A stretch of 64,000 nucleotides of DNA, taken from positions 21,512 to 85,511 of IMG/VR virus record IMGVR_UViG_3300007517_000005. One strand, 5' to 3'. Each line of letters opens with the position of its first letter. Position 1 is the stretch's first letter. The notes under the pieces are model-generated. The model was given only the letters and a program-made list of their open reading frames with translations. It made no database searches and had not been told where the DNA came from. Source of the stretch: a virus. Made by a program: the position numbers and the translations under genes. Positions 5,711 to 60,360 of the stretch are shown here, one piece after another.

Positions 5711-5757
5711 TATCACTCCATATAAACGCCCCCTGTAAAGGCTAGGTTCGCTATGCT

Positions 5758-6679: not shown

Positions 6680-6828
6680 TTTGCTCTTACCTACTATTGG
6701 TTATTACTTACTACATCTATTCCTATACGCCGATATGTTACACATAGTGGGCATTTATAAGATGAGTACACGCACGGTGTGTGCCCCCTCTGATGTAAGT
6801 CGCTACGCTCCAGGTGTGCGATACTACC

Positions 6829-18516: not shown

Positions 18517-18554
18517 CTTCACTCTCCTACTACCTATACCATCGCAAGACTATT

Positions 18555-22575: not shown

Positions 22576-22602
22576 TTCCCAAGGGTCGTAGCCTACGGCA
22601 CC
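22576..22602 (+). repeat. Family A repeat in frame in the RlaP-like gene
   Basis: Consensus family A copy (AAGGGTCGTAGCCTACGGCA) read as 'PRVVAYGTY'. The same peptide, PRVVAYGT, occurs in the unrelated protein at 56761-57099. Confidence 0.85.
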
Positions 22603-22714
22603 TACATAGGCTACGCATACGCACAACTGAAGAAAGTATCTACACATAAGTCATGGTTACTCAACCCCCCTACTGCTAAGCCTCAAGCTAATGACTATGG
22701 CTTAGATGATGCAC

Positions 22715-22784
22715 ACCTCCCTGTCGGGAGTGCTAACGACCTCCCTGTCGGGAGTGCTAGCAACGCTGTGAGCGTAGCGACTAA
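22715..22784 (+). repeat. Two family C copies and one family B copy in tandem, in frame
   Basis: Two overlapping family C units (CTCCCTGTCGGGAGTGCTAA and CTCCCTGTCGGGAGTGCTAG) run straight into a family B unit (GCAACGCTGTGAGCGTAG). Together they encode the low-complexity segments LPVGSAND, LPVGSASN and AVSVATND inside the RlaP-like protein, probably as a surface loop. Confidence 0.9.
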
Positions 22785-23445
22785 CGACCTCCCCTTAACT
22801 AAGAGTCAGATGGGCTCATTCCTAGAGTACATACTAGTGCTCACTAAAGATAGTATTGAATTCATGGAACCCGTGGCTGAACTCAAGAAGCTACTACTCG
22901 AAGATATAGACCTTACCGCTATCGTTAAACAGAGACCACTAACTACTGATGTTATACCCTATGTGCAGGCATTGACACGTGGTAGTACAAACTTCATGCA
23001 ATTACTACAAGCTAGTCAGGCTTATAGGAAGGCTATCTCTGAGTGGGATAACTACCAACAATGGAAGACTAATAGGAACCCAAAGAGGGCCGCACTTGAA
23101 GCACATTGTGGGTTTGACTCTAAACATGCTGTGCATAGTGCCGCATGGCTGCGACTGCCAAGGAGTGTACGTCTATTACGTCAAGGTCTTGAGGTGTTAC
23201 TACATGGTACCCTCACTGTTGATAGGCGTGGTTGATAGGCGTGACGCGGGTGATGCACCGCAGTTACTCGCTATACGTAATGGTGAGTATACCTATGAGC
23301 AAGTCATTGAGATAACTGATGCCCTATTCCTAGAAGTAGATGAGGCTTATAAACTATCCACTCTACCTCATGGGGTGCATCAGGAACATATAGATATACT
23401 GTGCACACAGTGGGTGCGAGATAGTCTGAGTAATTAACACTACGT

Positions 23446-41241: not shown

Positions 41242-41245
41242 TAAT

Positions 41246-41278
41246 ATAGTAGGCCCTACCCATGGGCCTATTATTGTA
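41246..41278 (+). terminator. Conserved hairpin 1 (TAGGCCC/GGGCCTA)
   Basis: TAGGCCC (41250-41256) pairs with GGGCCTA (41264-41270), extended by weaker pairs, then TTATTG. The 16 bases GGGCCTATTATTGTAC recur at 41948, 43273 and 53120. It could end transcription from upstream or mark the start of the next gene. Confidence 0.55.
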
Positions 41279-41296
41279 CTCTATCAATTTAGTCCC

Positions 41297-41911: not shown

Positions 41912-41929
41912 GCTCTGTATATTTATCTA

Positions 41930-41962
41930 GTAGTAGGCCCTACCCATGGGCCTATTATTGTA
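41930..41962 (+). terminator. Conserved hairpin 2 (TAGGCCC/GGGCCTA)
   Basis: Second copy of the hairpin, 41934-41954, identical in stem and loop to the first, between the GGDEF-like and coiled-coil genes. Confidence 0.55.
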
Positions 41963-41983
41963 CATACTCAAAGGATAAAGATC

Positions 41984-43251: not shown

Positions 43252-43255
43252 TTAG

Positions 43256-43288
43256 TAGTAGGCCCTACCCACGGGCCTATTATTGTAC
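43256..43288 (+). terminator. Conserved hairpin 3 (TAGGCCC/GGGCCTA)
   Basis: Third copy (43259-43279) with one loop change, between the kinase-like gene and the second giant gene. Confidence 0.55.
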
Positions 43289-43309
43289 TTACAACAATCA
43301 ATGAATATC

Positions 43310-46300
43310 ATGGCTACTTCAAACAACGGTTCCATTGTTTCTACCACCACCTCTACTACTCCTTCTGCTACTCCTTCTGCTACTACTATGAACACTACAT
43401 CTACCTCTTCCATCTACAAAGCTGCTGCTGCAGCCCGCAAAGCAGCAAAGGCAGCAGCAAAGGCTGCACCAGGTATTGCCATTCGTGCAGCGAAAGCAGC
43501 TAAGGCTGCAGCCATTGAAGCTGAACGTGAGGCAACTAAGGTTGCCGCTATTGAAGCTGCGCGTGCGGCTGCAGCTATTGCCACTGCTACACGGTTTGAA
43601 GTCTACTGCTACTTGACTGTAGCCTCTATTAAGGGCAATGCTGCCACTGCGGCAGTTATGGGTTCTACCACATTGGTAGTAGCCGCTGCCTTTGCAGTAG
43701 CAGTCTTAAAGGTACGCCGCCCACGCAAGGCCACTCGTGCCGCTCGTAAAGCAGCCGCACGGAAGGTAATGGGTATTGCATCTCGCAAGGCTAACCGCCC
43801 TTCTAACCGCCCCTCTCGCGCTACAGTAAGCACTTCTAGTGCGTTTGTACGTAAAGTGCACCGCAACAGCATGGCTGTTAAGCGTGCAGCACGCATGGGT
43901 GCATTAGCTGTGTATCAGTATGTAGCTATTGCTACTGCTGTCGCGGCACCTGTTCTGGCTAACACTTCTACCTCTGAAGTAGAAGCTATACTAGAACGCC
44001 CTAAGCGCACTGCGAAGGTAATGCCTTTAGCTTTGGTACGACCCAACGTACGAGCAGTACGCCACTATATTGCAGTTGCAGTTGCAGTTGCAGTTGCAGT
44101 AGAGGTAGAGGTAGAGCCTACTACTGCATTCTCACGCACTGAAAAGGCCGAGGCTGACAAAGCTAAGGCTTCATTGAAGGGCAGCCGCACAAAGGCGCAG
44201 GACGATGCTATCGAAGCTAAAGCTAAACGTAAAGCTGAAGCTAAGGCTAAGAAGGCTGCTAAGTCTACTTCCACCCCCAAGACTAAGACTGATAAGAAAG
44301 ATAAAGGTAAGGGCATCACCTCTGAACGCAAAGGAGCCCACAACCTAGTTGTGGCGGGCCCTACCGCTGACAACTACGGTTGGGTAGAGATATCCAATGA
44401 GGAGTTACTCCTCTCCCTTGAGTCTTCAGACTCTCATACTGCAGTAGGTCAAGCTGCAGAAACTATTCACAAGGACAATAACGACATGACTACTAACTTC
44501 TCCCCTGAAGTAATCACAAAGAACTTAGAATGCTTACTGGCTGGGGTTATTACTCCCGCAGAAGCATTCCTATTGGCACAGCACCAAACTGTAGCCGCCA
44601 CAACTGTGGTAGATGGTTCTGTGGTGTGCATGAAAGCACCCGCAACTCCTGCTACATTAGCGCCTGTGACTAATGTAGAATTGGCCTACACAAGCGAAGG
44701 CCGGTTCTACCCTGCCAAGGCTTTAACCAAAGAGTACTTTGCAATCCCGGCAGACTTCTACGCTATGGAGTCCATCCGTATTGCGTACAAATCAATGAAG
44801 TTGGATACTCACACGTATAACTTCTACGATGAAGGTGGCACTGTCTCTATTAAGACTAACAAACACAACAACAGTATCTTCATCAACAATTCCCACCCTC
44901 GCATCTACTTAGTAGATGGTGTAGAGTACCACTTCAACAACTTGTTGGAGGCAGTGTTCAATGAATCTATATCTGCCACTAATGCAGGTGTGCTAGAACA
45001 GTGGGCTGACTTCAATATTGAAGTTACAGGAGTAGCTGAAGATTTGGGGTGTGACTTAGAAGAAGCTACTACTCTAGTAGTAGCAGCAGGATTTGTTAAA
45101 CCAGCCCAACCTATCCACTACATAGTCCCTATCGCAGAGCGTGTAGAGACTAAAGAGAAGGGTAAGTTTGAGTATAAACTGAATGAGAAAGCTATCATCG
45201 AGAGTGCAGCCTTATGGGAAGAACAAGGCTATGAAGTACTCGTTATTAAAAGCGAGTTAGTGGTTAGCAACCTCTCTGTAGAGAACTTCCGCTACAACGG
45301 GTGCATTCCTTGCGAACCCATTACTAACCGAGAGCTAGAGCGGTTAGTATTGAGTGAGGTTGTACAGAAATGGAGTGCTGATAATATCCACTTATCAGTG
45401 AAACCCATATCCAACCTGTCTGAATGGTTGGATAAGGTAATGAACTCCAATACCGGCTCTGTAAAGAGCATTAGTTTCTCCTTCAATAACATCACCAATA
45501 TACAGCAACGTATATCTGATGTGAAGGGATTCTCACACGAGTTCACCTTCGCTACTCCCAAAGATCACTACGATGCTTTAGGTTTGGAGGAGGGTTCTGT
45601 ACCTGCGTTTACAATTAACTTGTGGACTAGCGCCCCTGCTAAATCTGCAGTAGTAAGCCAGAAGGTTATGGCAGATGTCTTAACCAATGTACCAAAGTTA
45701 GAACGCCGCACTGGTACACAAGGTTCATCTTTGTCTGTGCGCGGCTTATTTGCACAGAATGCAGGTCGTAATAATGTGAAGCCTGATGCTCCAAGACAAT
45801 CATTAGCTCATAAAGTGCTCGCTACTAATGTTGTAGCTTCAACCACTAGTGCATCAGTCACTAATGAAGTGATTACACCTACTGTTGCTGAGGCTAAAGA
45901 GGCTACCGCTTCGGCTGTTGTCATAGACACAGTATCTGGTGGGGCCGCTTTTGAGGTAGATTCAGTTGGTGGTGCATTAGATACAGCCCCAGTTATTAAT
46001 GCTGGTGATGTATTAAAACCCGCAGCGTCTAGCAAACAATCAGCTACTCCTGTAGTAGCTACAACCTTGAAAGACGTAGATAGTCAATTACTAGCCTTGA
46101 CTGGCTCATCATCTGATGATGAAGAAGAAGAGATTGATTTAGATGATATGGATCTCTGCCAAGCAGTAGAGTTGAAGGAAGTAAAGTTTACTCCTAGCTA
46201 TGATGGCGACATCAAAACTATCATAAACGACTTAGATTTGGCTATAACAACCATACCCGCAGGTGGTGACTACGGGAACTACCTCAACGATGTGATATCC

Positions 46301-49300
46301 ATCTCTGAAGAGTTGTCAGGGGATGAAGCTACCCAAGTGTTAGTCCACGAACTAATGCACGTAGTAATCTCCAACGTCAGCGAAGATGCGGCTAATAGCT
46401 TCATCACTGACTGGTTAGACACGGTGGGTCAATCTAGTATCTGCCCCGCAGACATGAGTATGGAGGAACAGTTCTGCTACTCCTTCATGGAGTACGAGCA
46501 TAATGTAGATGACCTATCCGCATTCCTAGATGGAGTATTCAATCGTGATGATAGCTGGGTTGATGCTTACAACGCATTAGCTGTAGCAGCCGGGCCAGAA
46601 GTAGCCGCTAAGTCTACTGCCCACCTCAGCATCATCGCTGAGGGCACTGCACCTGTAGTACCAGCATTGAGCCCCATGAAGGCCGCCTTATTGGCGGTGA
46701 ATGATCAAGAGATCATCATCGTAACAAATAACAAGGGGACAGTGCCAGTAGCATACACTGATGCGTTCCCTGAACTGTTAGATGTTATGCCAAGAACGTT
46801 GGAGTACGGTAGCACAACTACTGTGACTGCCGCCTGTGGTGTTACCTTGCATGCTATCTGCGCGGTGAGTGAGACAGGCACTTTGCATACTGACTCACTG
46901 AAGAGTGGCTTGATGCACATCGCAACTCTTGGTTGCGATAAGAAGTACGTCTGTGAACCAGACCTGGGCTTTGGCGATGATATCATCATCAAGCCCTACA
47001 TATTGGGTGCTGTCACTACCTTGTTAGGACAAGCTAAGGTACGCACTTTACAATTACCTGTAATGGGGCGCCTCGTTAAAGCATGGGCTAATGCCGGTGC
47101 TGTGGTAACGTACCCTAAAGCAGACCTAAGCCTATGGGCCGCTGATTTATGTCGAGGTACAGCACTAACTGCTACTGCAGTAGGTACTGGTGAAGTGCTG
47201 ATGGCACAACGCACTCCAAGTGGTCGCTCTATGGTTGCCACTATGGCGATCATTAAAGAGGACGGTACAGTTGATAAGGCTGCCTTAGCAGTCGGCTTAA
47301 CTGAATTAGAAGAAGGTATCGCTAATGGTCTAGTGCCACTGCCAATCACGGTATACAGCAATCAACAGGTTGCCTTTAATACCATCAAGTACCAACACTC
47401 TAATGCCATACGGGGGGTAGAGGTTGTAGACTATGAGCAGAATGTCTTCCCCGAAGCAGTAAAGATTGGTGTCTTAACGAAGGGCCCCAAAGGTGAAGTA
47501 GGCGCTGACCTATATAAGTGGTATAGCTTCTTACGAGATGGTATCAGCGGGGGCGCTGGCCTGTACAATGTACAGGAGTTGAGCGTAGAGCTCTTCACAG
47601 AAGCATTCAAGGCAGTAGGGTTGCCTGTAAACCTAGCTGGGTTCGCATTATGCCCAATGCCACTACGCTTCTTAAAGAACGGCATGGTGTTCGTACGTAA
47701 TGGTAAGACCGCCAAAGGTGTAGTAGAGAATGCTACTAAGTTCGAGGACATGATCGATAAGACATTACTCGGTGTGTTATTAGATAGTGGTGTAAAAGTG
47801 TACACAGCGCAATATGCGTGGGATGCTGCTGCTAAGAAGTCCATGATTCGTGGTGTTGTAGAGAACATCTACGATTACGAGCAAGGGTATGGTCTGGAGC
47901 CATTACCAGAAGGTATAGCTGGCCAAGACATGCTGAAGCTGAAAGAAGATAATGAATTCATGTACCCTATCATCGCATTGGGTACAATAGGTCACAGCCT
48001 AGACCAGTACATGCAGAAGCATGTCCACGATACACTACAGTACCTGGTAGACAACTTCGGCGTAGGTGTCGCAATCCGCTATACACAAGCATTACTCCCT
48101 GAGTTAATGCAGAAGGAAGGCGTGATGACGACCGATGGTACATTACAGTATCGTCTATCCGTGTTCAGCTTGCAGAATGCAGCAGAGTACTACATGGAGT
48201 TCACTCCTGTAGAAGGTCTGAATGATACGGATCCTAACTGGCTATCCCCACGCGACTGTACAATCATCTCGCGTCGCCAGTATGACGTGAATGCCATCAC
48301 TAACCTGTCTGGCTTCCCTGACACTATGTACGATGGGACTGTGGTAGCACTGGCTTTGGCTATCTCTGCAGCTTGTGGGCGTAAGGTAACACAGGATGCC
48401 TTTGAGGGTTACCTTGCTGGTACCACTAACCTCTGGGCCCGTAGTGAGAACTACGGTAAAAAAGGTATCACCGAGAAGTTCGCCAACTACTCACTGACAT
48501 CTACACTGAAAGTCATCATTGACAACAGTGGTAAGACTATTTCAAGTACACCGAACCACGTTATTGACGCAAGTGGTGTCCGCTTAAGCAAGGAGACAGG
48601 TGCAGGTCGCTGGCCATACCACATGCCTTGTAATGCCCCCCTAGACCTCTCTGTAATGCAGTGTCTAATGAAGAAGGGGCAACTTGTTATATGCGATAAG
48701 TACGCTATGGAGCGTATTGTAGTAGGTGATGGCGCACGTGCCATGATGGCCTCTATACTGACTGTAGAGCAAGCTTCTGAGCTAGCCGGCTATAACCAGA
48801 ACTATGGTCTGAGCATGGCCCTAGACCCCAACAATGGTAACTGTGTAATGTCAGTATGCTGGCCTACGGATAAGGCTAGTAAAGCATTGAACCGGCCGTG
48901 GCAGTTCAATGGAGCCAGCCAAGCAGATGGCTGGCATGAGAAGTTAAGCTGGTGCCCATTGCACACAGACTTAGGGAACAACAAGCGCTCCGCTATCGAA
49001 GGTTTCAAGCGCACCTTTATCGCTACTAACGACTTTATGTCGCACGGCAGCGGTACTGCACAACAACATCCTGACGCCTCTTTGTGGAGTCTATTTGTAC
49101 CAGGCTCCATGTCGGCTACATTGACCTGGAACCAAGTTCCAGCAGTACAAGAGAAAGTGGATGCCAATGGTAATCACTTAAAGGGTCTGCGTTGCAATAC
49201 TGCAATCATGGGGCCCGTATCAGGTGAAGGCCCCGCTGGTAAGGATGCAGATGGCAAGGAGGTACCAGTGTCTAAGTGGTTCTGCGATACCTTTGCGAAG

Positions 49301-52300
49301 ATGTTCGTAGAGAATGCCATTAAGAAGGCTATGTTTGAAGCCGATGGCACTACTCCACGGGTATACGCTCCAGGTGAGGAGATGGTAGTAATACTCGATA
49401 AGTTAATGGTCAAGGGTAATGAAGTAGTTGGATACTACCCTAATGGTCAGACTCCTGGCTTACCTTCATCCCGAACTGTATTGTTTACCAATGATTTAGG
49501 TAAACAGGACTGCGTTATCACAGGGTACCGTTTACTCCCACAGCAACGTGGTGAGAAGTTACAGATACGACTAGACTATGCGACAGTCATGGATACCAAT
49601 AACATTGACACTTCAATGTACTCTGGTATGAAGGGGCGTGGCCTAGGTATCAAGTTCATCATCAACCACGATGGCACTATTGAGTACATCGGTAAGGTTC
49701 TTTATAATGGGGAGATGGTTGACGCCAATGAGTTGTACAAACGTGGGGCTATCCACGTAACTCCAGAAGGTCTGAAAGGTAACTACGCCTTCATACAAGG
49801 GTTCGCCTCTGCACACGGTAATGCAGTAATGAGCGGCCCTTACCTGACCATTGACAGTACCATGCCAGATGGTACTCCTAACCCTCACTACCTCCTAGGT
49901 AGTGCAGACATGGTATCGGATATGTCCGATTCTAATGCTTACTTCTACAAGTGGATGAAGAGCATCACGCAAACTAACCGCATGCGGAAGACAGTGAACC
50001 GTGATGTATGGGAAGAGATTGTAGCCTACAACCGGGAAGCATTAGGCCCCGATGGTAAGTTACCAGGCTTAGTCATCATCCCACAACCTGGCCCCTACGC
50101 TATTGAGTGGGATGGGGAAGTAGATGGGCAACCTCACGTCACTACACCCAATGTAGTGACGGTAGAGTACGACGTGCAGATCGCAGTATTTGATTACTGG
50201 GTGCAAGTGGAAGTCGCTACACCGGGTGCATGTACAGGTGACCAAGGCGCTACCTCTGAGCAAGCAGTGCACATTGAGGTCATGCGTGAAGCTACTGCCA
50301 CCCACTTATGGAAAAGTAGTGCGAAACAACGCAAGGGTGTAAATAGTGCAGTAAGATCTGCAGAAGTCCACGCTAACGTGGAAGCAGGTATTCAGGAAGA
50401 TGGCCTGTTCCAGTTCAATCCACTAGACAAAACACATCAAGAGTTGATGATGCACTTGTTGAATCAAGTGTCTAGTACAGGTGTACGTACAGAACGTAAG
50501 CCTGAACACTTCTTCATACTGTTAGCTACATTGTTCGGTGGGGCCGCTATGAACCCAACCGCGCTATGGTTGAACATGTTAGCAGGTAAGGTATCAAACC
50601 TTGACTATGTTGAAGGTGCTAAGGGTATGGAAGTAGTTACCAACAGTGGTGGCTATAACTACCTGACTGAAGTTACTGGCTTATTGGAGCTAGTGATGAA
50701 TACACTGGGTGTCTTTCCCTTAGAAGAGCTAGGCTTAACGTTACGTGACTTGCAGGAACTTGTTAGCATAGCTATTCAAGATCACCTGACAATGGACGTA
50801 GCCGGTACACGCACAGTAGTGGAGAGCATCACTGGTGTTACCATGAGCACATCCGCTACAGCCCTAGGTATACAGATGTATATCATGGACCTTATTGGGT
50901 TAGGGTACACAGTAGTAAAACAGGTTGAAGGAAAGCCTGAACCGGATCTAGCCATCATCCCATTGCACGTGGGACAAGGTTTAGTGATCAATACAACTTC
51001 AGAGAACACTGAAGCTGGTGAAAGCCAGGAGGCGGTGACTTATGTTGACCCGACTGTGTTCTTACAGTTGGGTGCATTTGAGGTTAGCCGCATAGCCGCA
51101 GACCCTAAGACTCATGCCCCTGCACGTACTGTTACAGGTGCTGCTACAGGTGTGGTCAATGACATACACCACGCATTCGTGGAATGGACCACAACACAGT
51201 TCTGGCAACGTAATGGTAGCGGCACCCGCCCACACTCCATGAACTGCCGCTTGCGGGCATCCATGGCGGGTTGGATTGGGGTTAACAGTAAGAAATCAAC
51301 CCAGCTTAACGCTAAGGGTGTACTGTCACGCGTAGCACGTATTAACAAAGGTGGTGTAGCTGGTAAAATAGATACAGGCTTAGGCCCTGAATTAGGTCAC
51401 CACATCGTCACCGATAAGAATGGTACACCAGTAGGTAAGCTACCTGTAGCCATCATCCACCCTGACTGCTTACTAGCCAAAGGGCTGAAGCATGGTGACT
51501 TAATTGCAGTAGGCCGTACCCCCACGGTATCCCTAATAATGGCCGTAGTGCGCTTCTCCCGCGTATTCGGACGTATGGGATATATCCGCATGTCCTTCTC
51601 CGTATGGGCCGCTGGTAACAACGGAGATAGCGATGGAGACCCATGTAACCGCATCCGTATGGGTGGCGCCACCGATAAGGGTTGGTCTGGCTTAACCTAC
51701 CGAGGTGCGATGAAGATCAATAAGAGTGCCCTCGGTATGGGCGGCTATAGCATAGTGTGTGGTGTCCCCTTACATCAACATGACTGTGCAGAGTTCGTGT
51801 CCTTTACGAACTCCTGGACTAAGAAGGTATTCAATGATGCCTTGATACCTGACTCCATTAAAGCATGGCTAGCCGTTAAAGGCTTGAAGGTCAAGGGACT
51901 GGAGACATTGGTTAACTTGATGTTACCTGCTAGCTTACTGGATAGTGCACGTAAAGTGTCACAACACTACCGCGCTAACGTAGGCGTCGCCTATGGTTGG
52001 TGTAGTGCATACTCCGCACACATGAAGGAGAAACACTCATACCTGAAGGCAGTACTGAATGCTGTCTTGAAGAGTGAGGCTGCTTTAGCTTGTGGGCATG
52101 AACTGCCATCAATAGATACATTGATGGAAGTGTTAATGAGTGGTGAAATCTATGAAGCTATCCGACTTACCGCTGTAGATACAGTGGTGGATGGTACAGT
52201 AATGACCACTATAACTCAAGATGCAGAAGCAGTTGTGCGGATCCGCATCAAGTACCCTGCCATTATGGCACTGTATGACCTCAAGCTAATTGCTGAAGTC

Positions 52301-53044
52301 AACCCTATGGATATCGTGAGCCTAGGGCAACACGTCAATGTAATGACTCAGGCATCCGCTTGGTTATGGCGTGGCGTGTACGAAGGCTTAGGCCTATCAG
52401 GTTATAGCCCTGACGCATTCACCTTCTTCGAGGCCTTCACTTACGCGCTCCGCAATAAGGGTCTGGTAGGGGATGCCTCAATTGTCGATGATAAGGGTAA
52501 TGTCACAAGCATAGCTGTTGCTAAGCCCAATGTCATTGGTGGTGTAACTATAGGTATGACCTTGGGTGCATTCTTGAGTAAGCACTACAAGATGACCTTA
52601 GAGATTGCCAATGAAGTAATGGCAGCTTGTTTGCTCTATAACGGGTACCGTGCTATCGAGCGTGGTCAACACGTGCCATCAGAGGCCGTCTATGATAAGG
52701 TTCCTCCAACAATGTTGGACACCTACGAGAACCTTTACTACGACAACATGTCCGGATGGCCGGACACCAAAGAAACTGAGTACATAGACCACGCTGTACT
52801 GGCTGGTGTATTCCGACGTGCGGGACAAGGTACCACTGGTGTATCCTTCGATGATGAAATGGATGGTGAGTCATCTTCGCAGATGATCTACACCTACGCC
52901 GCTGAGTTATGGGCTATTGCCATAGCAAGTGGCCGCTCCCCATTCTTGAATGTCATGTTAAATGACATCGTCTATCAAAGCGTAAGTCTGTACTGTAAGC
53001 TAGTGCAGATTGCTTCCATCGAATCCACAAACGAGGCTTACTAA
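43310..53044 (+). CDS. Giant protein with RNA polymerase beta'-like catalytic motif
   Basis: A protein of about 3244 residues. Residues 20-330 are low in complexity: AAK/AAR repeats, AV and EV runs, lysine-rich, histone-like. About residue 1013 there is 'VLVHELMHVVIS', an HExxH metalloprotease-like motif. About 2730-2780 is the strongest signal: 'VGRTPTVSLIMAVVRF', then 36 residues after its R the motif 'NNGDSDGDP', nearly the same spacing as R-x-P-T to DFDGD in bacterial beta' (35). At about 2080-2110 'RGEKLQIR' and 'SGMKGRG' might be the two lysines of a beta-like barrel. This suggests a single-chain RNA polymerase. The start is uncertain (43301, 43310, or an internal ATG at 44486). Confidence 0.62.
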   Translation: MATSNNGSIVSTTTSTTPSATPSATTMNTTSTSSIYKAAAAARKAAKAAAKAAPGIAIRAAKAAKAAAIEAEREATKVAAIEAARAAAAIATATRFEVYCYLTVASIKGNAATAAVMGSTTLVVAAAFAVAVLKVRRPRKATRAARKAAARKVMGIASRKANRPSNRPSRATVSTSSAFVRKVHRNSMAVKRAARMGALAVYQYVAIATAVAAPVLANTSTSEVEAILERPKRTAKVMPLALVRPNVRAVRHYIAVAVAVAVAVEVEVEPTTAFSRTEKAEADKAKASLKGSRTKAQDDAIEAKAKRKAEAKAKKAAKSTSTPKTKTDKKDKGKGITSERKGAHNLVVAGPTADNYGWVEISNEELLLSLESSDSHTAVGQAAETIHKDNNDMTTNFSPEVITKNLECLLAGVITPAEAFLLAQHQTVAATTVVDGSVVCMKAPATPATLAPVTNVELAYTSEGRFYPAKALTKEYFAIPADFYAMESIRIAYKSMKLDTHTYNFYDEGGTVSIKTNKHNNSIFINNSHPRIYLVDGVEYHFNNLLEAVFNESISATNAGVLEQWADFNIEVTGVAEDLGCDLEEATTLVVAAGFVKPAQPIHYIVPIAERVETKEKGKFEYKLNEKAIIESAALWEEQGYEVLVIKSELVVSNLSVENFRYNGCIPCEPITNRELERLVLSEVVQKWSADNIHLSVKPISNLSEWLDKVMNSNTGSVKSISFSFNNITNIQQRISDVKGFSHEFTFATPKDHYDALGLEEGSVPAFTINLWTSAPAKSAVVSQKVMADVLTNVPKLERRTGTQGSSLSVRGLFAQNAGRNNVKPDAPRQSLAHKVLATNVVASTTSASVTNEVITPTVAEAKEATASAVVIDTVSGGAAFEVDSVGGALDTAPVINAGDVLKPAASSKQSATPVVATTLKDVDSQLLALTGSSSDDEEEEIDLDDMDLCQAVELKEVKFTPSYDGDIKTIINDLDLAITTIPAGGDYGNYLNDVISISEELSGDEATQVLVHELMHVVISNVSEDAANSFITDWLDTVGQSSICPADMSMEEQFCYSFMEYEHNVDDLSAFLDGVFNRDDSWVDAYNALAVAAGPEVAAKSTAHLSIIAEGTAPVVPALSPMKAALLAVNDQEIIIVTNNKGTVPVAYTDAFPELLDVMPRTLEYGSTTTVTAACGVTLHAICAVSETGTLHTDSLKSGLMHIATLGCDKKYVCEPDLGFGDDIIIKPYILGAVTTLLGQAKVRTLQLPVMGRLVKAWANAGAVVTYPKADLSLWAADLCRGTALTATAVGTGEVLMAQRTPSGRSMVATMAIIKEDGTVDKAALAVGLTELEEGIANGLVPLPITVYSNQQVAFNTIKYQHSNAIRGVEVVDYEQNVFPEAVKIGVLTKGPKGEVGADLYKWYSFLRDGISGGAGLYNVQELSVELFTEAFKAVGLPVNLAGFALCPMPLRFLKNGMVFVRNGKTAKGVVENATKFEDMIDKTLLGVLLDSGVKVYTAQYAWDAAAKKSMIRGVVENIYDYEQGYGLEPLPEGIAGQDMLKLKEDNEFMYPIIALGTIGHSLDQYMQKHVHDTLQYLVDNFGVGVAIRYTQALLPELMQKEGVMTTDGTLQYRLSVFSLQNAAEYYMEFTPVEGLNDTDPNWLSPRDCTIISRRQYDVNAITNLSGFPDTMYDGTVVALALAISAACGRKVTQDAFEGYLAGTTNLWARSENYGKKGITEKFANYSLTSTLKVIIDNSGKTISSTPNHVIDASGVRLSKETGAGRWPYHMPCNAPLDLSVMQCLMKKGQLVICDKYAMERIVVGDGARAMMASILTVEQASELAGYNQNYGLSMALDPNNGNCVMSVCWPTDKASKALNRPWQFNGASQADGWHEKLSWCPLHTDLGNNKRSAIEGFKRTFIATNDFMSHGSGTAQQHPDASLWSLFVPGSMSATLTWNQVPAVQEKVDANGNHLKGLRCNTAIMGPVSGEGPAGKDADGKEVPVSKWFCDTFAKMFVENAIKKAMFEADGTTPRVYAPGEEMVVILDKLMVKGNEVVGYYPNGQTPGLPSSRTVLFTNDLGKQDCVITGYRLLPQQRGEKLQIRLDYATVMDTNNIDTSMYSGMKGRGLGIKFIINHDGTIEYIGKVLYNGEMVDANELYKRGAIHVTPEGLKGNYAFIQGFASAHGNAVMSGPYLTIDSTMPDGTPNPHYLLGSADMVSDMSDSNAYFYKWMKSITQTNRMRKTVNRDVWEEIVAYNREALGPDGKLPGLVIIPQPGPYAIEWDGEVDGQPHVTTPNVVTVEYDVQIAVFDYWVQVEVATPGACTGDQGATSEQAVHIEVMREATATHLWKSSAKQRKGVNSAVRSAEVHANVEAGIQEDGLFQFNPLDKTHQELMMHLLNQVSSTGVRTERKPEHFFILLATLFGGAAMNPTALWLNMLAGKVSNLDYVEGAKGMEVVTNSGGYNYLTEVTGLLELVMNTLGVFPLEELGLTLRDLQELVSIAIQDHLTMDVAGTRTVVESITGVTMSTSATALGIQMYIMDLIGLGYTVVKQVEGKPEPDLAIIPLHVGQGLVINTTSENTEAGESQEAVTYVDPTVFLQLGAFEVSRIAADPKTHAPARTVTGAATGVVNDIHHAFVEWTTTQFWQRNGSGTRPHSMNCRLRASMAGWIGVNSKKSTQLNAKGVLSRVARINKGGVAGKIDTGLGPELGHHIVTDKNGTPVGKLPVAIIHPDCLLAKGLKHGDLIAVGRTPTVSLIMAVVRFSRVFGRMGYIRMSFSVWAAGNNGDSDGDPCNRIRMGGATDKGWSGLTYRGAMKINKSALGMGGYSIVCGVPLHQHDCAEFVSFTNSWTKKVFNDALIPDSIKAWLAVKGLKVKGLETLVNLMLPASLLDSARKVSQHYRANVGVAYGWCSAYSAHMKEKHSYLKAVLNAVLKSEAALACGHELPSIDTLMEVLMSGEIYEAIRLTAVDTVVDGTVMTTITQDAEAVVRIRIKYPAIMALYDLKLIAEVNPMDIVSLGQHVNVMTQASAWLWRGVYEGLGLSGYSPDAFTFFEAFTYALRNKGLVGDASIVDDKGNVTSIAVAKPNVIGGVTIGMTLGAFLSKHYKMTLEIANEVMAACLLYNGYRAIERGQHVPSEAVYDKVPPTMLDTYENLYYDNMSGWPDTKETEYIDHAVLAGVFRRAGQGTTGVSFDDEMDGESSSQMIYTYAAELWAIAIASGRSPFLNVMLNDIVYQSVSLYCKLVQIASIESTNEAY

Positions 53045-53084: not shown

Positions 53085-53135
53085 GGGGGCCCTCCCCCTA
53101 GATAATGGGCCCCTAATACGGGCCTATTATTGTAC
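53085..53135 (+). terminator. Double hairpin after the giant gene
   Basis: GGGGG-CCCT-CCCCC (53085-53098) is followed by GGCCC/GGGCC (53108-53124) and by GGGCCTATTATTGTAC (53120-53135), the fourth copy of the motif seen at 41264, 41948 and 43273. A repeat of the first hairpin stands at 54493-54506 after the next gene. Confidence 0.6.
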
Positions 53136-53187
53136 AGTATCCGCATGAGTGGGTGCTTACTCCCTAAGTCTATAGCGCAGTAGCGCT

Positions 53188-53425
53188 GAACCACTCACAT
53201 AAGCTAAGATAACTAATGCTCTTAGAGCTAGTAACGCTTGCTATGCGTGTAGTGCCGAACCACTTACATAGGCAAGGATAACTAGTGCTATAACCGCTAA
53301 TATCGCTGTCTGTGTGCATGGTGTTGAACCACTCACATAGGCAAGGATAACTAGTGTTATAAACGCTAATATCGCTGTCTATGTGTATGGTGTTGAACCA
53401 CTCACATAGGCAAGGGATATAATAT
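53188..53425 (+). repeat. 69-bp tandem repeats (3 units and a partial fourth)
   Basis: Units begin at 53188, 53257, 53326 and 53395, each with GAACCACTCACATAGGCAAG or a close variant, exactly 69 bases apart. The second and third are nearly identical; the first is more diverged; the fourth ends after 20 bases. All frames have stops, so it is not coding. It may be a set of binding sites (iterons), an origin element, or repeated start sites ahead of the next gene. Confidence 0.92.
53393..53423 (+). promoter_or_regulatory. Possible sigma70-like promoter in the last repeat unit
   Basis: TTGAAC (53393-53398) and TATAAT (53418-53423) with a 19-base spacer. The -10 is created only in the last, shortened unit (GATATAATATC); the other units read GATAACTAG at this place. 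Confidence 0.45.
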
Positions 53426-54560: not shown

Positions 54561-54765
54561 ATTATAAAGGTATGACAGCGGGCGTATATGCGCCCCTGAC
54601 AGCCTTTCGTGTAATGTAGCCATAGACAGTGTCTATGCTGGTCGCAAGCCCACCGGCACGACGCGCACCGTGGCGCGCAGACCCTACCCACGGGATACAT
54701 CCTACTCTTCGAGCATTATGCGAGGAGAGCGCACAACAACCATTATTCATAGAGGAGACAACGAC

Positions 54766-55218
54766 ATGATTACTATCACTAAACAAGACGTGTGTGAGTC
54801 CGTGTTCAACCCATGCAACTTCTTTATCGACAACTTACCCATAACAGGGTGGGTCATCGATAATGATGGCATCATCATATCGAATGAAGATGGCGAGGGT
54901 CATGTAGAGTGGCCACTGGTTCTTTCAGAGACCGCTCTTTCAGAGACCGCTCCTCCCCAAGGGTCGCCGCATGGCTGCGACCTACAAACAGACATACTAT
55001 CTGCGTTCACCCAACACACCAACAAAGAGTTGGTCGGGCGCATATCAGATGTACTAGTGATAAAAGGGAAGGGGCTACGTATAGATACCCTATACGCAAT
55101 GCTGGAGACTGAAGAGGATGGCATTGTCATTGTATACGAAGCATTTGGCCATCCGAACAGTAGCTGGGTGGTCGGTCGATCCCTTCAGGGTACGTTGTTC
55201 ACACAAACGCCCGTATGA
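54766..55218 (+). CDS. Unknown protein with family A repeat
   Basis: A 150-residue protein starting 'MITITKQDVCESVFNPCNFF'. GAGGAGA lies before the ATG, which decides the start. A family A copy (54951-54983) is in frame near residue 65 ('PPQGSPHGCDLQ') and follows a small duplicated 'LSETA LSETA'. Function unknown. Confidence 0.58.
   Translation: MITITKQDVCESVFNPCNFFIDNLPITGWVIDNDGIIISNEDGEGHVEWPLVLSETALSETAPPQGSPHGCDLQTDILSAFTQHTNKELVGRISDVLVIKGKGLRIDTLYAMLETEEDGIVIVYEAFGHPNSSWVVGRSLQGTLFTQTPV
54951..54983 (+). repeat. Family A repeat in frame
   Basis: AAGGGTCGCCGCATGGCTGC, a family A copy inside the gene at 54766-55218. Confidence 0.8.
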
Positions 55219-55288
55219 ACGACCATGACGTGCGGTCTATCCCCCTATGGGCCGCACAACAATCTATTCACATTAAGGAGACAGCGAC

Positions 55289-55474
55289 ATGTTTAAGGTA
55301 ACTTCCAATGGTAATATCGAGTACCACAACCACAACCACAATTGGGGTTTCTACTCAGACAGCCGCTCAGACGGCCACAGCGCAGTGACGACAGTTTACT
55401 GTCAATCAAATGTTGTATCCGTAGGGTATAAATATTTGCACATAGTCATAGGCCGGTTCCGCGGCCACCTATGA
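55289..55474 (+). CDS. Small unknown protein
   Basis: A 61-residue histidine- and asparagine-rich protein ('GNIEYHNHNHNWGFYSDS') with a strong site (AAGGAGACAGCGAC) before the ATG. Function unknown. It touches the next frame by four bases. Confidence 0.55.
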   Translation: MFKVTSNGNIEYHNHNHNWGFYSDSRSDGHSAVTTVYCQSNVVSVGYKYLHIVIGRFRGHL

Positions 55475-56328
55475 TGGCCGGCCTCAATGTTATGGTGTCT
55501 ATACCTCCCTGTCGGGAGGTACCGCATACCTGCGACCCATGTAAGCATCATCAGACACACCGCCCACAACCCTTGTATGCTTCCTCGCCGTACACTCCCC
55601 TAGGGTTGTGGGTCACGGCACCCCTCTATAATTGTGAGGACAGTACTATATCTACTAAACCATGCCCATCTGCAGTACGCACTTCAATATCTACTACTAC
55701 AGACCTAGACCTTACCCCAGAGGTACAGCAGGCAGTACTAGCCAATAATAGCTTCCCAGAGCTATTAGAGTACGCCGTCTCGCAAGGGGCCGGATTGTAC
55801 GTACTATTGGATAAGTCATACGTCAAGTGGTGGGGCGTGCCCCCCAAGGATTACTACAAGCACGTGTACATCTGTGCCCCGATTGCAGAGGCGCCCGCTA
55901 ACTGTAATGGCTTGCAGTACACTAGCATAGGAATCAACCCCTATACCGGTAAAGTACTGTGCCCAGCAGATGGGTTGACCGAGAGGGATGTTTATAACAT
56001 CTTCCTGGTGAAGGGTAGTGCCTTTACTATAAAGGACACCAAGCGGTGTGCCTACTCGGATTTACACTCTGCCGTAATGCAGTACTGGTGCCTCGCTGAG
56101 AAGAACCACAGCTTGAAACTACTACTGAATACGAAGAAAGCCACTCTGTACGTGATAGGTACCGGTGGTGGGTGCGCCATATTCCAGTCCTTCAAGGATA
56201 TTAGAGAGTTCTTCTATGGGGATGTAGACCCCAATGATGGGGAGTCCTTAACGAATCTACTCGCTATGTACGGCAGTCGGTTACATGATAGATTACGCGC
56301 CTTACCTAATGGGCGCTCTATTGTGTAA
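55471..56328 (+). CDS. Unknown protein with repeat-built N-terminus
   Basis: A 285-codon frame. Residues 1-45 come from a family C/A hybrid (55502-55538) and another drifted family A copy (55588-55620), so the native start is uncertain. From residue 70 it reads as normal protein ('LTPEVQQAVLANNSFPELLE', 'SLKLLLNTKKATLYVIGTGG'). Function unknown. Confidence 0.52.
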   Translation: MMAGLNVMVSIPPCREVPHTCDPCKHHQTHRPQPLYASSPYTPLGLWVTAPLYNCEDSTISTKPCPSAVRTSISTTTDLDLTPEVQQAVLANNSFPELLEYAVSQGAGLYVLLDKSYVKWWGVPPKDYYKHVYICAPIAEAPANCNGLQYTSIGINPYTGKVLCPADGLTERDVYNIFLVKGSAFTIKDTKRCAYSDLHSAVMQYWCLAEKNHSLKLLLNTKKATLYVIGTGGGCAIFQSFKDIREFFYGDVDPNDGESLTNLLAMYGSRLHDRLRALPNGRSIV

Positions 56329-56368
56329 CATCACCCGTTCAACCCTATGGGCCACACACCCCTATCAC

Positions 56369-56431
56369 TATTAACTTCGCTACGCTCAGAATGCTCTGAG
56401 CATCCTGCGAGGAGGGAGCGTAGCGACCTAC
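56369..56431 (+). repeat. Composite repeat cluster (families B and D)
   Basis: CTTCGCTACGCTCAGAATGC, then GAGCATCCTGCGAGGAGGGA, then GCGTAGCGACCTAC. A family B element appears to have been opened by a family D segment. Confidence 0.85.
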
Positions 56432-56447
56432 TTACTCAACAAACACC

Positions 56448-56693
56448 ATGTATACCCAAACACAGACATCATTACCTTCTCGCACAACCCTCCGTACAGC
56501 CCCTGCTGTAATGTATGCGGCCCTCTTGGGACCACGCTGTGTCGATGTCTATCAATCCTATAATGACGCAGCAGCCGCCATCAAAGCCTTCCCTATGGGG
56601 TGGGTAATGGAACTACAAGCAGATGCTGTATTAGAAGACGCATTACATGAGACAGAGTACGACCACGTGCCACTGTTCTATGCCCCTTGGTAA
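56448..56693 (+). CDS. Small unknown protein
   Basis: An 81-residue protein ('MYTQTQTSLPSRTTLRTAPA', 'SYNDAAAAIKAFPMGWVMEL') of unknown function. Its leader is A/C-rich (CAACAAACACC) without a Shine-Dalgarno sequence. Confidence 0.52.
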   Translation: MYTQTQTSLPSRTTLRTAPAVMYAALLGPRCVDVYQSYNDAAAAIKAFPMGWVMELQADAVLEDALHETEYDHVPLFYAPW

Positions 56694-56760
56694 TGAATGC
56701 GGCTATCAATGATGTAAGGGGGTACCCACTCCCCCACAATATACTCAATAGGAGACAATC

Positions 56761-57099
56761 ATGTATACCAACCACTCCCCAAAGAAGTACCCACTAGGTA
56801 TGGATGTAATTACACCCAATGGTGTAATGTACATTGAATGGAAAGCCCTGTGCGTTAAGCTAGGAGTGACGAAGGCTAAGGCATTGCTACGGAACTGGGA
56901 GACGGCCCGAGATGGTCGTTACGCTAAAACACCCCACAAGACAGAGCAAGGGGTATTCATACACTCCCCAAGGGTCGTAGCCTACGGCACTCTAGTACCT
57001 ATGGGTGTATGGACTACTGGGGCATCACCCAGGTCCACTACAGAGGCTCCCTACCAAGCCCCAGTAAGGGCAAGCCTGTGGAGACTGCGTGGTCCTTAA
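56761..57099 (+). CDS. Small unknown protein with family A repeat
   Basis: A 112-residue protein. The first 75 residues look native ('MYTNHSPKKYPLGMDVITPN'; 'WKALCVKLGVTKAKALLRNW' could be a small DNA-binding helix pair). A family A copy (56962-56993) then gives 'SPRVVAYGTL', after which the C-terminus is of low quality, so the repeat may have replaced the true end. GGAGAC precedes the ATG. Confidence 0.5.
   Translation: MYTNHSPKKYPLGMDVITPNGVMYIEWKALCVKLGVTKAKALLRNWETARDGRYAKTPHKTEQGVFIHSPRVVAYGTLVPMGVWTTGASPRSTTEAPYQAPVRASLWRLRGP
56962..56993 (+). repeat. Family A repeat in frame
   Basis: Consensus copy AAGGGTCGTAGCCTACGGCA inside the gene at 56761-57099. Confidence 0.88.
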
Positions 57100-57649
57100 T
57101 GAAGAAGGCACTACTATACAAACTATTCTAGCAACGCTCAGAATGCTTCCTCGCTGTACACTCCCCAAGGGTCGTAGCCTAGCAACGCTCAGAATGCTCA
57201 GAGCATCCTGCGAGGAGGGAGCGTAGCGACCTACGGCACTCGGAGAGGGGACAAGAGCATCCTGCGAGGAGGGAGCGTAACGACCTAGCAACGCTCAGCC
57301 GGCCCTCGCCACCGTAGGTACGCTACTACAGATGATAAGGGTATACTGTACTCCCATGGTACATTACCCCTATATGCCTGTTGTGCGGCCCACTCACGGT
57401 TCTCTGTACCCGCTAATAGGAATCTATGGGCGGCCTGCATTGACTTCGGTATGTGCCGCATGACTGCGACCCTTCGCGCTATTGTTGGTAATGCTGTCAT
57501 ATCTGTAGCAACCTCCCCAAGTGTTATACCTAATTATAGTATAGCGCTGGTAAGGGAATGTTGCACAGATAATACTCCCTGCTGGGCATCTCTGATGTAC
57601 TGCTATCTGCGACACAGTCGCTACGACCCTTAAGGAGTGCTAACAACCT
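57100..57649 (+). repeat. Repeat cluster without a clear gene
   Basis: From 57128 to 57298 families A, B and D are packed in tandem (for example GCAACGCTCAGAATGC, CCCCAAGGGTCGTAGCC, GCATCCTGCGAGGAGGGAG). Reverse-type A copies follow at 57457-57476 and 57604-57636. I see no convincing gene here; short frames are made of repeat sequence. Confidence 0.8.
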
Positions 57650-58066
57650 ATGGAATATAGTGAGACCACTAAGAATGCCCTCGCTACCATGAATGCTAGG
57701 AGACTTAAACTAGCCACTGCTGCCGCCTTACGCGGTGATAAGAGGCCGCCAGTCTATAGGAAGAGTGCCCTATTCTACTCTACTAAGCCCGGTGCTAAAC
57801 CCTGTAGTGATGGTAATATCGAGAACCTTATCATTAAGCTAGATCACTCCGATGTACATACCGGGACTGGCCTCGCCATTGATGCCGCCCTCTGGTACGT
57901 CGTTGAGGGCTTCATAGCCCCCATCTTCATCCTCATTGATGGTAACCCTCTATCCATAAATGACCACGGGCGTGTTACCTTCTGGGCCGGCTATCAGGGC
58001 TCTATCTACACCCGTCGCTACCTTGATGCACTCATCGCACGTGGTGCCGTGGGCCACGACCTTTAG
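57650..58066 (+). CDS. Unknown protein
   Basis: A 138-residue protein starting 'MEYSETTKNALATMNARRLK'. The first 50 residues are basic; the rest looks like one folded domain ('GLAIDAALWYVVEGFIAPIF'). The C-terminus ('RGAVGHDL') comes from a family A copy (58043-58071). Function unknown. Confidence 0.52.
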   Translation: MEYSETTKNALATMNARRLKLATAAALRGDKRPPVYRKSALFYSTKPGAKPCSDGNIENLIIKLDHSDVHTGTGLAIDAALWYVVEGFIAPIFILIDGNPLSINDHGRVTFWAGYQGSIYTRRYLDALIARGAVGHDL

Positions 58067-58460
58067 GGAGGTGGGCTCGTATAACTCCCCTATGTATTAT
58101 CTGTGCGACATTATTGCCATAACCACCCAACCTGTGCTATACTTGTTGTAACGAGCGAGCGATCAAGTGTACCTGACCACAAGGCAGTGATGCTAATACC
58201 AGGTATTTACTAAGATCCCCTTCACTGCTGCCTCTCTGAGGCTATAGAGCAGAGTAAAGCTGGGGGCACGTAACAGAAGATGGATAAGACGGCGGTAGTT
58301 CCTCCCCTCACAAGGAGATGATCGAGAACCTCCCAAAGGAAGCGTAGCGACCTAACAGAGAAGCATCAGTCATTCTACTTAGCCCATACCTTACGTGTAG
58401 GACTCGTCCAAGGCTGCTGGTGATGTATAACATTGCCTACCTTCATACTCCCCCTACAGG
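58067..58460 (+). other. Non-coding stretch, possibly structured
   Basis: No clear gene in about 390 bases. It includes GTTGTAACGAGCGAGCGATC, which recalls the left end of the IS607 relic (ATGTAACGAGTTGAGG at 31672), several small self-complementary pieces, and a family B/D right half (AGCGTAGCGACCTA) at 58332. It may be the remains of a mobile element. Confidence 0.45.
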
Positions 58461-58673
58461 ATGTGTGATAAACAGTACTTGGACCCCAAGGGGGGATACG
58501 CTACATACTCTGTAGTGCCATACAACAGTTGGCACCGCCAGAGACTAGTAAATATGGCTCAGGATACGTGTGGTTATATATCGACTCCTTGGAGTTTATT
58601 CAGACAAGGGCTGACACCTTTATATAACTCAACTCCTGCGCGACCGCATAAGATGACCTCCCTCTTTCATTAG
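58461..58673 (+). CDS. Small hypothetical protein ending in a terminator
   Basis: A 70-codon frame ('MCDKQYLDPKGGYATYSVVP' ...) whose stop lies within the stem of the terminator at 58657-58680. No family and only a weak ribosome site; uncertain. Confidence 0.33.
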   Translation: MCDKQYLDPKGGYATYSVVPYNSWHRQRLVNMAQDTCGYISTPWSLFRQGLTPLYNSTPARPHKMTSLFH

Positions 58674-58687
58674 AGGGGGGTTTCTTA
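58657..58687 (+). terminator. Rho-independent-like terminator
   Basis: CCTCCCTCT (58657-58665) pairs over nine positions (one G-T pair) with AGAGGGGGG (58672-58680), loop TTCATT, then TTTCTTATT. Confidence 0.8.
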
Positions 58688-58730
58688 TTGCATATCCCCC
58701 CTACCGGAACACGACCCTTAAGGAGCGTAA

Positions 58731-59402
58731 CGACCTATCCTTTACTCTGAACTACAATCCATCCTCGACTCCTTTACCAGCACCTCGCTAGGTAAATACC
58801 CTCACCGCTACATCTTCTTCGATCTTAACGCTAAGTATAATGCCTCACTCCGTGAGCTACTTCATACTGATGGCTACTGGGATTGGGCTCCCGCACGCTC
58901 TAAGGTACTCGTCAGCGCACACCAACTCGTTGCCTTCTACTGCACACCACACCCCGCTACTGGTGGTGACTCTGTAGAAGTTCATCATATCAATGGTAAC
59001 TCCACTGATAATCGCCCCTCTAACCTTATCTACCTCACCCCCGCCGATCACGCTCTCGTTACTAAACATCAGCGTCATTACTCTAAACTATCTCTCAAAC
59101 TATTCTCTAAGATTCAAGACGGCCTTCCTCGCTCTTCCTTCAATCGCCGTGGTGCACGGGTTCGTTCCTGGGCTCACTTCATACTTATGGTCATTGCCCT
59201 TACCGTCTCTAAGACTCTAACCTGGGTTCATGCCTATAGCCCCGTCAAACACCCACAACGCTCTATCAAGGGCGCTATCCATAACATCCTCCGCGCCCTC
59301 CTTGCTATGGCTCCCTCCTCGCAAGATGCTCTTGTCCCCTCTCCGAGTGGACAGCGAGGAAGCATTCTGACCCCTGCACCACTTCCCTGTCGAGAGTGCT
59401 AG
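58731..59402 (+). pseudogene. HNH endonuclease without a usable start
   Basis: An open frame of 223 codons with a clear HNH motif: 'VEVHHINGNSTDNRPSNLIY' then 'TPADHALV' (first H at codon 85), much like the HNH protein at 32332-33093. A basic C-terminal part follows. No ATG, GTG or TTG lies in the frame before the motif. Just upstream is a family A/B-like repeat (CGACCCTTAAGGAGCGTAAC) whose TAA closes the frame, so the start was probably lost when the repeat entered. The end (from about 59310) is also repeat sequence. Confidence 0.72.
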
Positions 59403-59428
59403 CAACGCTGGGAGCGTAGCGACCTAGT
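59328..59428 (+). repeat. Composite repeat cluster (D, C and B)
   Basis: GCGAGGAAGCATTCTGAC, then CTTCCCTGTCGAGAGTGCTA (family C-like), then GCAACGCTGGGAGCGTAG (family B), head to tail, overlapping the end of the HNH frame. Confidence 0.85.
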
Positions 59429-59466
59429 CAACGCCGCCCACTAATCACTTAAGCCCCGCCCCTACT

Positions 59467-59574
59467 ATGTCACTATACAAACACACCCTTACAGGTGCCT
59501 TAACATTGCCCCTATATAAATGGAAGTGGGGCATGACAGGTCTAACCTTGTATAACAGACATACAGTGCATTAA
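59467..59574 (+). CDS. Very small hypothetical protein
   Basis: A 35-residue frame ('MSLYKHTLTGALTLPLYKWK' ...) in the gap before the next gene. No family and no good ribosome site; it may be chance. Confidence 0.28.
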   Translation: MSLYKHTLTGALTLPLYKWKWGMTGLTLYNRHTVH

Positions 59575-59646
59575 AGATGCAACCCCCGGGAGAGTACACA
59601 CGCTGTACGCTCTATTTATGTTCTCTACCCACAACACAACAAAGAT

Positions 59647-59997
59647 ATGACTACTCAAACCCTCGCAGAATCATTACTACCCTCAGATCCCATCAATGAA
59701 TTACAGACACACTACCTCGGCGTGCTGTGCGGTGATTGTGACCGCCACTTGTTCATACCCCTGTTCTTCAAAGAACTGAAAAGGTTGTTGGGTATAGACC
59801 TAATACCAGCTAGTGAAATATACAACGATAGTATAACATTCACAATAAATGGGTGGTACGTAATAATGTTACTACCAGATAAACACACCGAGCTCACTCA
59901 AGAAGTCATATGCCCACAATTCACAATGAAAGGTAAAGAGCGTACAATTACGCATGATAACGTATCTGAGTTAATAGACACGTTAAATAACGTGTAG
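59647..59997 (+). CDS. Unknown protein
   Basis: A 116-residue protein ('MTTQTLAESLLPSDPINELQ', 'SITFTINGWYVIMLLPDKHT') with mixed structure and no recognised family. The leader is A/C-rich (CCACAACACAACAAAGAT) without a Shine-Dalgarno site, as for other genes in this part. Confidence 0.55.
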   Translation: MTTQTLAESLLPSDPINELQTHYLGVLCGDCDRHLFIPLFFKELKRLLGIDLIPASEIYNDSITFTINGWYVIMLLPDKHTELTQEVICPQFTMKGKERTITHDNVSELIDTLNNV

Positions 59998-60164
59998 TTC
60001 TAGTAAGAGGCCCGGCTCTATAAATAGCAAGAAGTAGGCACACACCCATAAATACCTACTCCCTGCTATAAACTACATGTGTGCAATCTACTATGATTAC
60101 ATTAATCATAGTAAATTGCATAATCTCTAATCGTAAGCTGTGTATAACAACAGTTGACACTAAA

Positions 60165-60360
60165 GGCAGCCGCAGCCATGCGACACTATGCAGCCTCTGT
60201 CACCCATGCAGTGAAGGTCTAGCAACGCTGGGAGCGTAGCGACCTAGCAACGCTCAGAATGCTGTTGTCCTCTCTCCGAAAGTGCCGTGGGCCGCGACCC
60301 TTGGGGAGAGCACAGCGAGGAAGCATCCTGCGAGGAGTGAACGTAGCGATCTAAAGCCCT
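60165..60360 (+). repeat. Repeat cluster (A, B, D) in a gene-free stretch
   Basis: Between 60000 and 60405 there is no clear gene. From 60219 to 60356 a family B copy, a D segment, a reverse family A copy (GTGCCGTGGGCCGCGACCC) and a further D/B hybrid follow each other. An A-like half lies at 60165-60185. Confidence 0.8.

Follow-up and report, generated by a model that had tools for sequence, protein, structure and literature searches.

Is the giant protein encoded at 43310-53044 of this viral DNA an RNA polymerase, and if so, of which kind? The window studied here is the whole stretch of 64,000 nucleotides, and it belongs to an 85.5-kb viral contig. An earlier note had read two motifs of the protein, GRTPTV and NNGDSDGDP, as the signature of the beta' type of largest polymerase subunit. 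Both are found where the note had placed them, at 51512-51529 and 51617-51643, in the single stop-free frame of the giant open reading frame, with R-T-P-T followed 37 residues on by D-S-D-G-D. The chain has the length of about 3.2 kilo-residues that had been given for it: 3244 residues from the ATG at 43310, or 3253 from an upstream TTG at 43283. The ATG is the likely start, because the homologue in Microcoleus phage My-WqHQDG opens with the same residues, MATSNN. Residue numbers are given in the TTG frame (3253 aa).

We find that the protein is very probably a two-barrel RNA polymerase of a new and highly divergent family, with its catalysis and its second barrel inferred; this judgement does not extend to its role in infection. 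The features of the gene are:

43310 to 53044, + strand: giant single-chain RNA polymerase candidate (gp064-like), 3244 aa from the ATG at 43310.
46346 to 46360, + strand: HELMH, zinc-metallopeptidase-like motif, residues 1022-1026; HELVH or HELFH in the cyanophage branch.
49460 to 50218, + strand: inferred second barrel (DPBB-B, beta-subunit type), limits approximate, from a beta-rich region of the orthologue model.
49631 to 49654, + strand: KGRGLGIK (K2117, K2124), conserved lysine pair and candidate triphosphate-binding lysines, from the aligned relatives.
51347 to 51664, + strand: predicted catalytic double-psi beta-barrel (DPBB-A, beta'-type), residues 2689-2794, from AlphaFold and Foldseek.
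51458 to 51469, + strand: HPDC, which opens the conserved hxPxC...GlkxGD stretch, from the family alignment.
51515 to 51526, + strand: RTPT (R2745), counterpart of the beta' R-x-P motif; R and P invariant in 13 members.
51617 to 51640, + strand: NNGDSDGD, putative catalytic aspartate loop with D2782, D2784 and D2786, magnesium ligands by analogy; invariant.
51929 to 52069, + strand: long predicted helix with HYRANVGVAYGWCSA, candidate bridge helix, from the models; Y, V and G invariant.
52379 to 52411, + strand: YEGLGLSGYSP, conserved motif and putative downstream element of the polymerase core, from the family alignment.
52811 to 52831, + strand: FRRAGQG, conserved C-terminal motif, from the family alignment.

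The relatives of the window are Ma-LMM01-like cyanophages (Fukuivirus) and phage My-WqHQDG. With tblastn the giant ORF is 42% identical to the My-WqHQDG homologue across 80% of the query, and 27% identical around the motif to Ma-LMM01 gp064 and its counterparts in MaMV phages; all these homologues are annotated as 'hypothetical'. In a first alignment of five homologues, at about 23-53% identity, RTP(T/M) and GDxDGD are invariant and the distance from the R to the G before the first Asp is exactly 36 residues, which takes the signature beyond chance. Ma-LMM01 gp064 (YP_851078) and the MaMV homologues have an identical motif layout, including HExxH, at about 23-27% identity. However, gp064 is only 1673 aa long against 3244 aa in the window, and it has no annotated function. 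We place the giant ORF in the gp064 family by homology of the conserved core and by a common context, namely a gp080-like gene, tandem repeats downstream and a tRNA-Met.

Single-sequence and narrow-alignment searches of viral and genome contigs gave no close relatives, and a search with the five-sequence alignment reached only Ma-LMM01-like contigs. The wider family was reached by motif-level DNA patterns, scanning viral contigs for back-translated NxGDxDGDxC and W...NxGDxDGD. This added members on contigs of 65-252 kb (L111, L113, L116, L117, L120 and L121) as well as the more distant L119, L043 and L106. When the Trp was left out, the NNGDxDGD pattern matched mostly by chance, and the pattern matches in genome contigs were rejected, being only archaeal Asp-rich repeat proteins.

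In all, the family reaches down to about 20% identity. It spans My-WqHQDG, Ma-LMM01 gp064, the MaMV phages and, among environmental phage contigs, at least six more lineages, and the independent lineages are mostly 18-37% identical to each other. Conservation of the motifs is observed directly: R, P, W, N, G and D-x-D-G-D are invariant across 13 aligned members, and the distance from R-x-P to the first Asp is 36-39 residues, with L043 and L106 as longer outliers. Further, the family keeps W...NxGDxDGD. The match to the cellular NADFDGD proposed in the earlier note holds for D-x-D-G-D but not for the Asn, since the invariant one sits three residues before the first Asp and not two. Most members of sufficient length carry K-x-R-x-x-G-x-K or a close variant of it upstream (KGRGLGIK, KLRGLGKK, KLRGPGVK, KLRGFGIK, KFRTAGLK) and HY...VG..Y and YE..GL.G downstream. 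Lysines near 2083 and 2108, positions that fit ATG numbering, had been suggested to face the aspartates; the second is conserved (K2117 in TTG numbering) but the first is not, and the conserved partner of K2117 is K2124, in K-G-R-G-L-G-I-K.

In L043 the catalytic part is a 694-aa ORF flanked by separate ORFs of 357 and 436 aa, and we infer that the chain appears to be split there. A giant phage ORF of 1383 aa in L106/L107, with R-Y-P...NDGDCDGD, has no match to the family profile; it may be yet another divergent polymerase.

The family is not recognised as a polymerase by any Pfam, PHROG or PDB sequence profile. A confident match to another family, which would have refuted the polymerase reading, did not come out of these searches either. 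Cellular beta'/Rpb1 (PF00623) has the same order and spacing of R-x-P...DxDGD but gives no HMM match, and the comparison of the family with beta/Rpb2 (PF00562) is not significant. In cells beta' and beta are separate subunits, while the giant ORF is one chain.

Profile-profile comparison does show a relation to one phage enzyme. Using hhalign, the family matches gp96 of Thermus phage P23-45, a validated single-chain virion RNA polymerase, with P=2.5e-4 and a score of 46.2, against a mean of 17.1 (sd 2.8, maximum 27.6) for 60 column-shuffled controls, and the alignment is in register across 'lgLKxGDxxxxxRxPm...DxDGD'. On the same scale, accepted relatives score P=0.096 (phi14:2 gp66 against archaeal A') and P=0.041 (gp96 against A'). 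A better score than that of the family against gp96 was reached only when gp96 was compared with gp64, also from P23-45 (P=1.6e-6). The match to archaeal A' is weak, 24.7 compared with a shuffled maximum of 22.1, but in register. Not significant are the comparisons of the family with gp64, of the family with gp66 (P=0.6, a single gp66 sequence) and of the upstream lysine region with archaeal B (P=0.41). Of the profile searches proposed in the earlier note, that against the beta' type gives the weak match to A', and those against the beta type (archaeal B) and crAss-like gp66 give nothing significant.

The relation to gp96 is thus seen directly at the profile level, and gp96 is both the best profile match and the best fold match of the family. 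It is fused to a tape measure (PDB 8h2m/8h2n) and, like the giant ORF, it is a single chain with a metallopeptidase motif; the two have the GLkxGD...RxP stretch in common, and R-x-P to the first Asp is 38 residues in gp96 versus 37 in the giant ORF. Phage P23-45 also has a second polymerase. There are differences: the polymerase part is near the N-terminus of the tape measure in gp96 but in the C-terminal part of the chain in the giant ORF, the upstream lysine motif of the family is not matched in gp96, and tblastn of the window protein in a phage collection did not recover gp96. The claim that such an enzyme would be unlike known phage enzymes has to be softened, since a parallel has been published in gp96 (PMC10770324). 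As to the partial parallel with crAss-like phages, the closest known enzyme is gp96 and not gp66. The phi14:2 protein is also a giant single-chain phage polymerase with an Asp triad, but its motif is DFDID and, with one gp66 sequence used, it has no profile similarity to the family. Another single-chain two-barrel RNA polymerase, from a prophage, is YonO of SP-beta, of about 100 kDa (PMC5467207).

Next, we studied predicted structures. An AlphaFold model of residues 2010-3205 of the window protein, built with 12 relatives, is poor overall (mean pLDDT 48.6, pTM 0.54). It is confident at residues 2689-2794 around DSDGD, with block means mostly 71-86, and in the long helices that follow. The first Foldseek match of this model is the largest subunit of plant Pol IV (E=0.023, probability 0.28); the second, with probability 1.00, TMt 0.79 and 2.5 A, is a designed double-psi barrel. 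The hit table has no query ranges, and we place the designed-barrel match at DSDGD by inference from its length and from the model confidence. A model of the orthologue L009, from a Ma-LMM01-like contig (residues 659-1701), is better, with pLDDT 65.3, pTM 0.68 and mostly 82-93 in the catalytic stretch. Its top two matches among 350,542 PDB chains are the gp96 crystal forms 8h2m (E=0.0049, probability 0.66) and 8h2n (E=0.016, probability 0.44), each weak when taken alone. Lower in the list are E. coli beta', the largest subunit of Pol III and the second-largest subunit of Pol I, the last with a probability of 0.38.

For neither model does a match to a solved structure reach E<=0.001, and with superposition limited to pieces the TM-scores are low; therefore the fold search alone is insufficient as proof. 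It becomes persuasive because the same protein, gp96, is picked by the profile comparison. However, the two lines are not wholly independent since the same family alignment was used in both. With this reservation, the double-psi barrel around DSDGD that had been proposed as a test is predicted, its placement being inferred. A long helix, at the place where a bridge helix is expected, follows DPBB-A in both models (H874-920 in the model of the window protein; H790-825 in the orthologue model, with pLDDT near 89). Of the two barrels, with the DxDGD loop facing the lysines, that the earlier note proposed to look for, the second is not firm: it is inferred from the conserved lysines and from a beta-rich region at 245-450 of the orthologue model, of moderate confidence, which also sets the limits given for DPBB-B. 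We hold the second barrel unproven because the lysine region has no significant match to archaeal B.

By analogy, the gp064-like protein would be a single-chain, DNA-dependent RNA polymerase homologous to the cellular beta/beta' core. On the beta'-type barrel D2782, D2784 and D2786 would hold the magnesium ions, as in gp96 and the cellular enzymes, and R2745, which we take to be the counterpart of E. coli beta' R425, may contact the ribose of the NTP. K2117 and K2124 on the putative upstream beta-type barrel would bind the incoming NTP, and the helix after the DSDGD barrel may act as a bridge helix. A trigger loop was not identified in the models.

A barrel with these aspartates need not belong to an active polymerase. 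It could be real and yet sit in a structural or binding protein, or in a descendant of a polymerase that has lost its activity, and most high-probability Foldseek matches are indeed stand-alone barrels of the Cdc48-N, RlpA and formylmethanofuran-dehydrogenase types. To our knowledge, these lack the DxDGD triad and R-x-P. Moreover, the longer fold alignments are to RNA polymerases, gp96 first, and loss of activity is disfavoured because the three Asp, R-x-P and the lysine pair are conserved in the family. We consider this explanation improbable. Sequence motifs alone also leave the product undetermined, and archaeal PolD has the two-barrel core as well (PMC4996933), so the protein might be a DNA polymerase resembling the D family. 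Yet PolD is absent from the 50 best structural matches listed for either model (there was no direct comparison with DP2), Ma-LMM01 already has a DNA polymerase, 3'-5' exonuclease, clamp loader and primase, and the best relative, gp96, makes RNA (PMC10770324). A DNA polymerase is in our view very improbable.

A further observation speaks against a two-barrel RNA polymerase: only host sigma-70-like promoters are reported in the Ma-LMM01 transcriptome paper (PMC5780444). The reading of the giant protein as a single-chain RNA polymerase of beta' type largely survives, as an activity that is only inferred.

The HExxH motif noted before is present in the chain, as HELMH at residue 1022, with a PHROG metallo-protease match of E=7.7e-4. 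Among the members examined it is limited to the cyanophage branch, and it is missing in L111, L116, L120 and L121. Near the split genes of L043, small HExxH-type ORFs lie on the - strand at 6542-7027 and 8612-9199 (FLHELIHAF, FVHEAIHAL). Because of this restriction and of these separate ORFs, HExxH is probably an accessory module, perhaps for processing.

The polymerase candidate is not the only giant protein in the window with a DxDGD motif. At the left end are the genes of a major head protein, a portal protein and a phrog_31006 protein of 3897 aa:

17 to 1303, - strand: major head protein (phrog_30785, E=2.6e-99).
4286 to 5716, - strand: portal protein, near the second giant (phrog_113, E=4.4e-16).
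6829 to 18522, - strand: second giant DxDGD protein (gp080-like), 3897 aa, candidate virion RNA polymerase (phrog_31006, E=3.9e-92).
10183 to 10197, - strand: DYDGD of the second giant, residues 2776-2780; L-x-D-x-D-G-D invariant in 10 members.
10354 to 10371, - strand: RSAPFG of the second giant, residues 2718-2723, an R-x-x-P-x-G motif; R, P and G invariant.
17548 to 17598, - strand: a feature within the gene of the second giant.

In the gp080 family R-x-x-P-x-G...LxDxDGD is invariant in the 10 members, and most have an N-terminal HKD nuclease-type motif and C-terminal hydrophobic segments. The profile comparison with gp96 is not significant (P=0.24), and for this reason it is only from motifs and context that the second giant is taken for a polymerase. 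That the two giants co-occur is a direct observation. The second is found in nearly every phage with a gp064-like protein, and searches started from the second giant and from the first converge on the same contigs of 94, 107 and 252 kb. G014 carries both types; in G011 and G013, where the profile missed the partner, a GDxDGD scan gives an ORF with the layout R(S/A)xPxG...GDFDGD (the reversed pattern gave 0 or 1 matches per contig). No partner was found in G005, G007 and G010 (31-80 kb) or in G015 (10.5 kb), which may be fragments. We lean towards two polymerases per phage, with that of the second giant inferred from motifs and context.

In P23-45 a virion enzyme is used for the pre-early genes and a non-virion enzyme afterwards (PMC10770324). 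Together with the pair seen here, this suggests a virion and a non-virion polymerase, and an inferred division of labour: most likely the gp080-like protein would be packaged and injected with the DNA, as in P23-45, and the gp064-like protein would be the non-virion enzyme, active after infection in transcribing part of the phage genome. The roles might also be swapped within the polymerase reading, with gp064 packaged and gp080 acting later or being no polymerase at all. The gp064-like protein is likewise giant, shares the HExxH motif with the P23-45 virion polymerase/tape measure and contains hydrophobic stretches in its N-terminal part, and it is the gp080 family that lacks the match to gp96. 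However, the gp080-like gene lies close to those for portal and capsid, and its product has the C-terminal hydrophobic segments and nuclease-type motif, while Ma-LMM01 gp064 adjoins the published early genes gp063-gp054 (PMC5780444), away from the structural module. Swapped roles are less likely but possible.

After the giant ORF the window has tandem repeats and then, at a greater distance, a tRNA-Met, and the same arrangement is found in Ma-LMM01. The repeats directly downstream of the gene, at 53187-53415, are 69 bp x 3.3; those of Ma-LMM01 (L001 15697-15977) are in the same position but of a different unit, 42 bp x 6.7, and the published early-gene cluster gp063-gp054 comes after them. An intergenic hairpin, AGGCCC-loop-GGGCCT followed by ATTATTGTAC, occurs in near-identical copies at 41244-41283, 41928-41967 and 43253-43292, with no match expected by chance for three such close copies. 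The last immediately precedes the polymerase gene, which is itself followed by a diverged copy at 53100-53139. The hairpin is possibly a terminator, a processing site or a promoter; a search of the upstream regions for phage promoters gave only this hairpin and no clear promoter. Families of short dispersed repeats (GCTAGCAACGCTGGGAGCGTAGCGACCTA and related) are found at 22744, 28979, 31407, 38475, 59386, 60206 and 54710-60353. Elsewhere, the window encodes a nucleotidyltransferase-like protein at 22189-23235 (phrog_388, E=2.5e-34) and a conserved 679-aa protein of unknown function at 26685-28724 (phrog_1735, E=1.9e-223).

For Ma-LMM01, the transcriptome paper describes three expression classes, no phage sigma factor, no phage-specific promoter and unchanged host transcription during infection; it concludes that all classes depend on sigma-70 and leaves the switching between them open (PMC5780444). 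The genome of MaMV-DH01 is stated to lack an RNA polymerase (PMC9927357). A full-text literature search, which did not extend to subscription journals, gave no report of a polymerase in the Ma-LMM01-like group within the texts it covered, and priority is uncertain. The giant protein family, probably unrecognised before, is also present in Microcystis viruses reported without an RNA polymerase of their own. Whether Ma-LMM01-like cyanophages and at least six further lineages share two giant RNA polymerases, of which one is packaged and the other synthesised after infection, is evenly balanced on present evidence. If true, transcription of these phage genomes would not depend, at least in part, on the host, whereas the literature has it that the phages lack an RNA polymerase. 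The gp064 family adds to the two-barrel polymerases known so far, with a chain that may be split in one case (L043). One phage polymerase, possibly two, would bear on how the expression classes of Ma-LMM01 switch, a question that is approachable in the cultured pair Ma-LMM01 and Microcystis.
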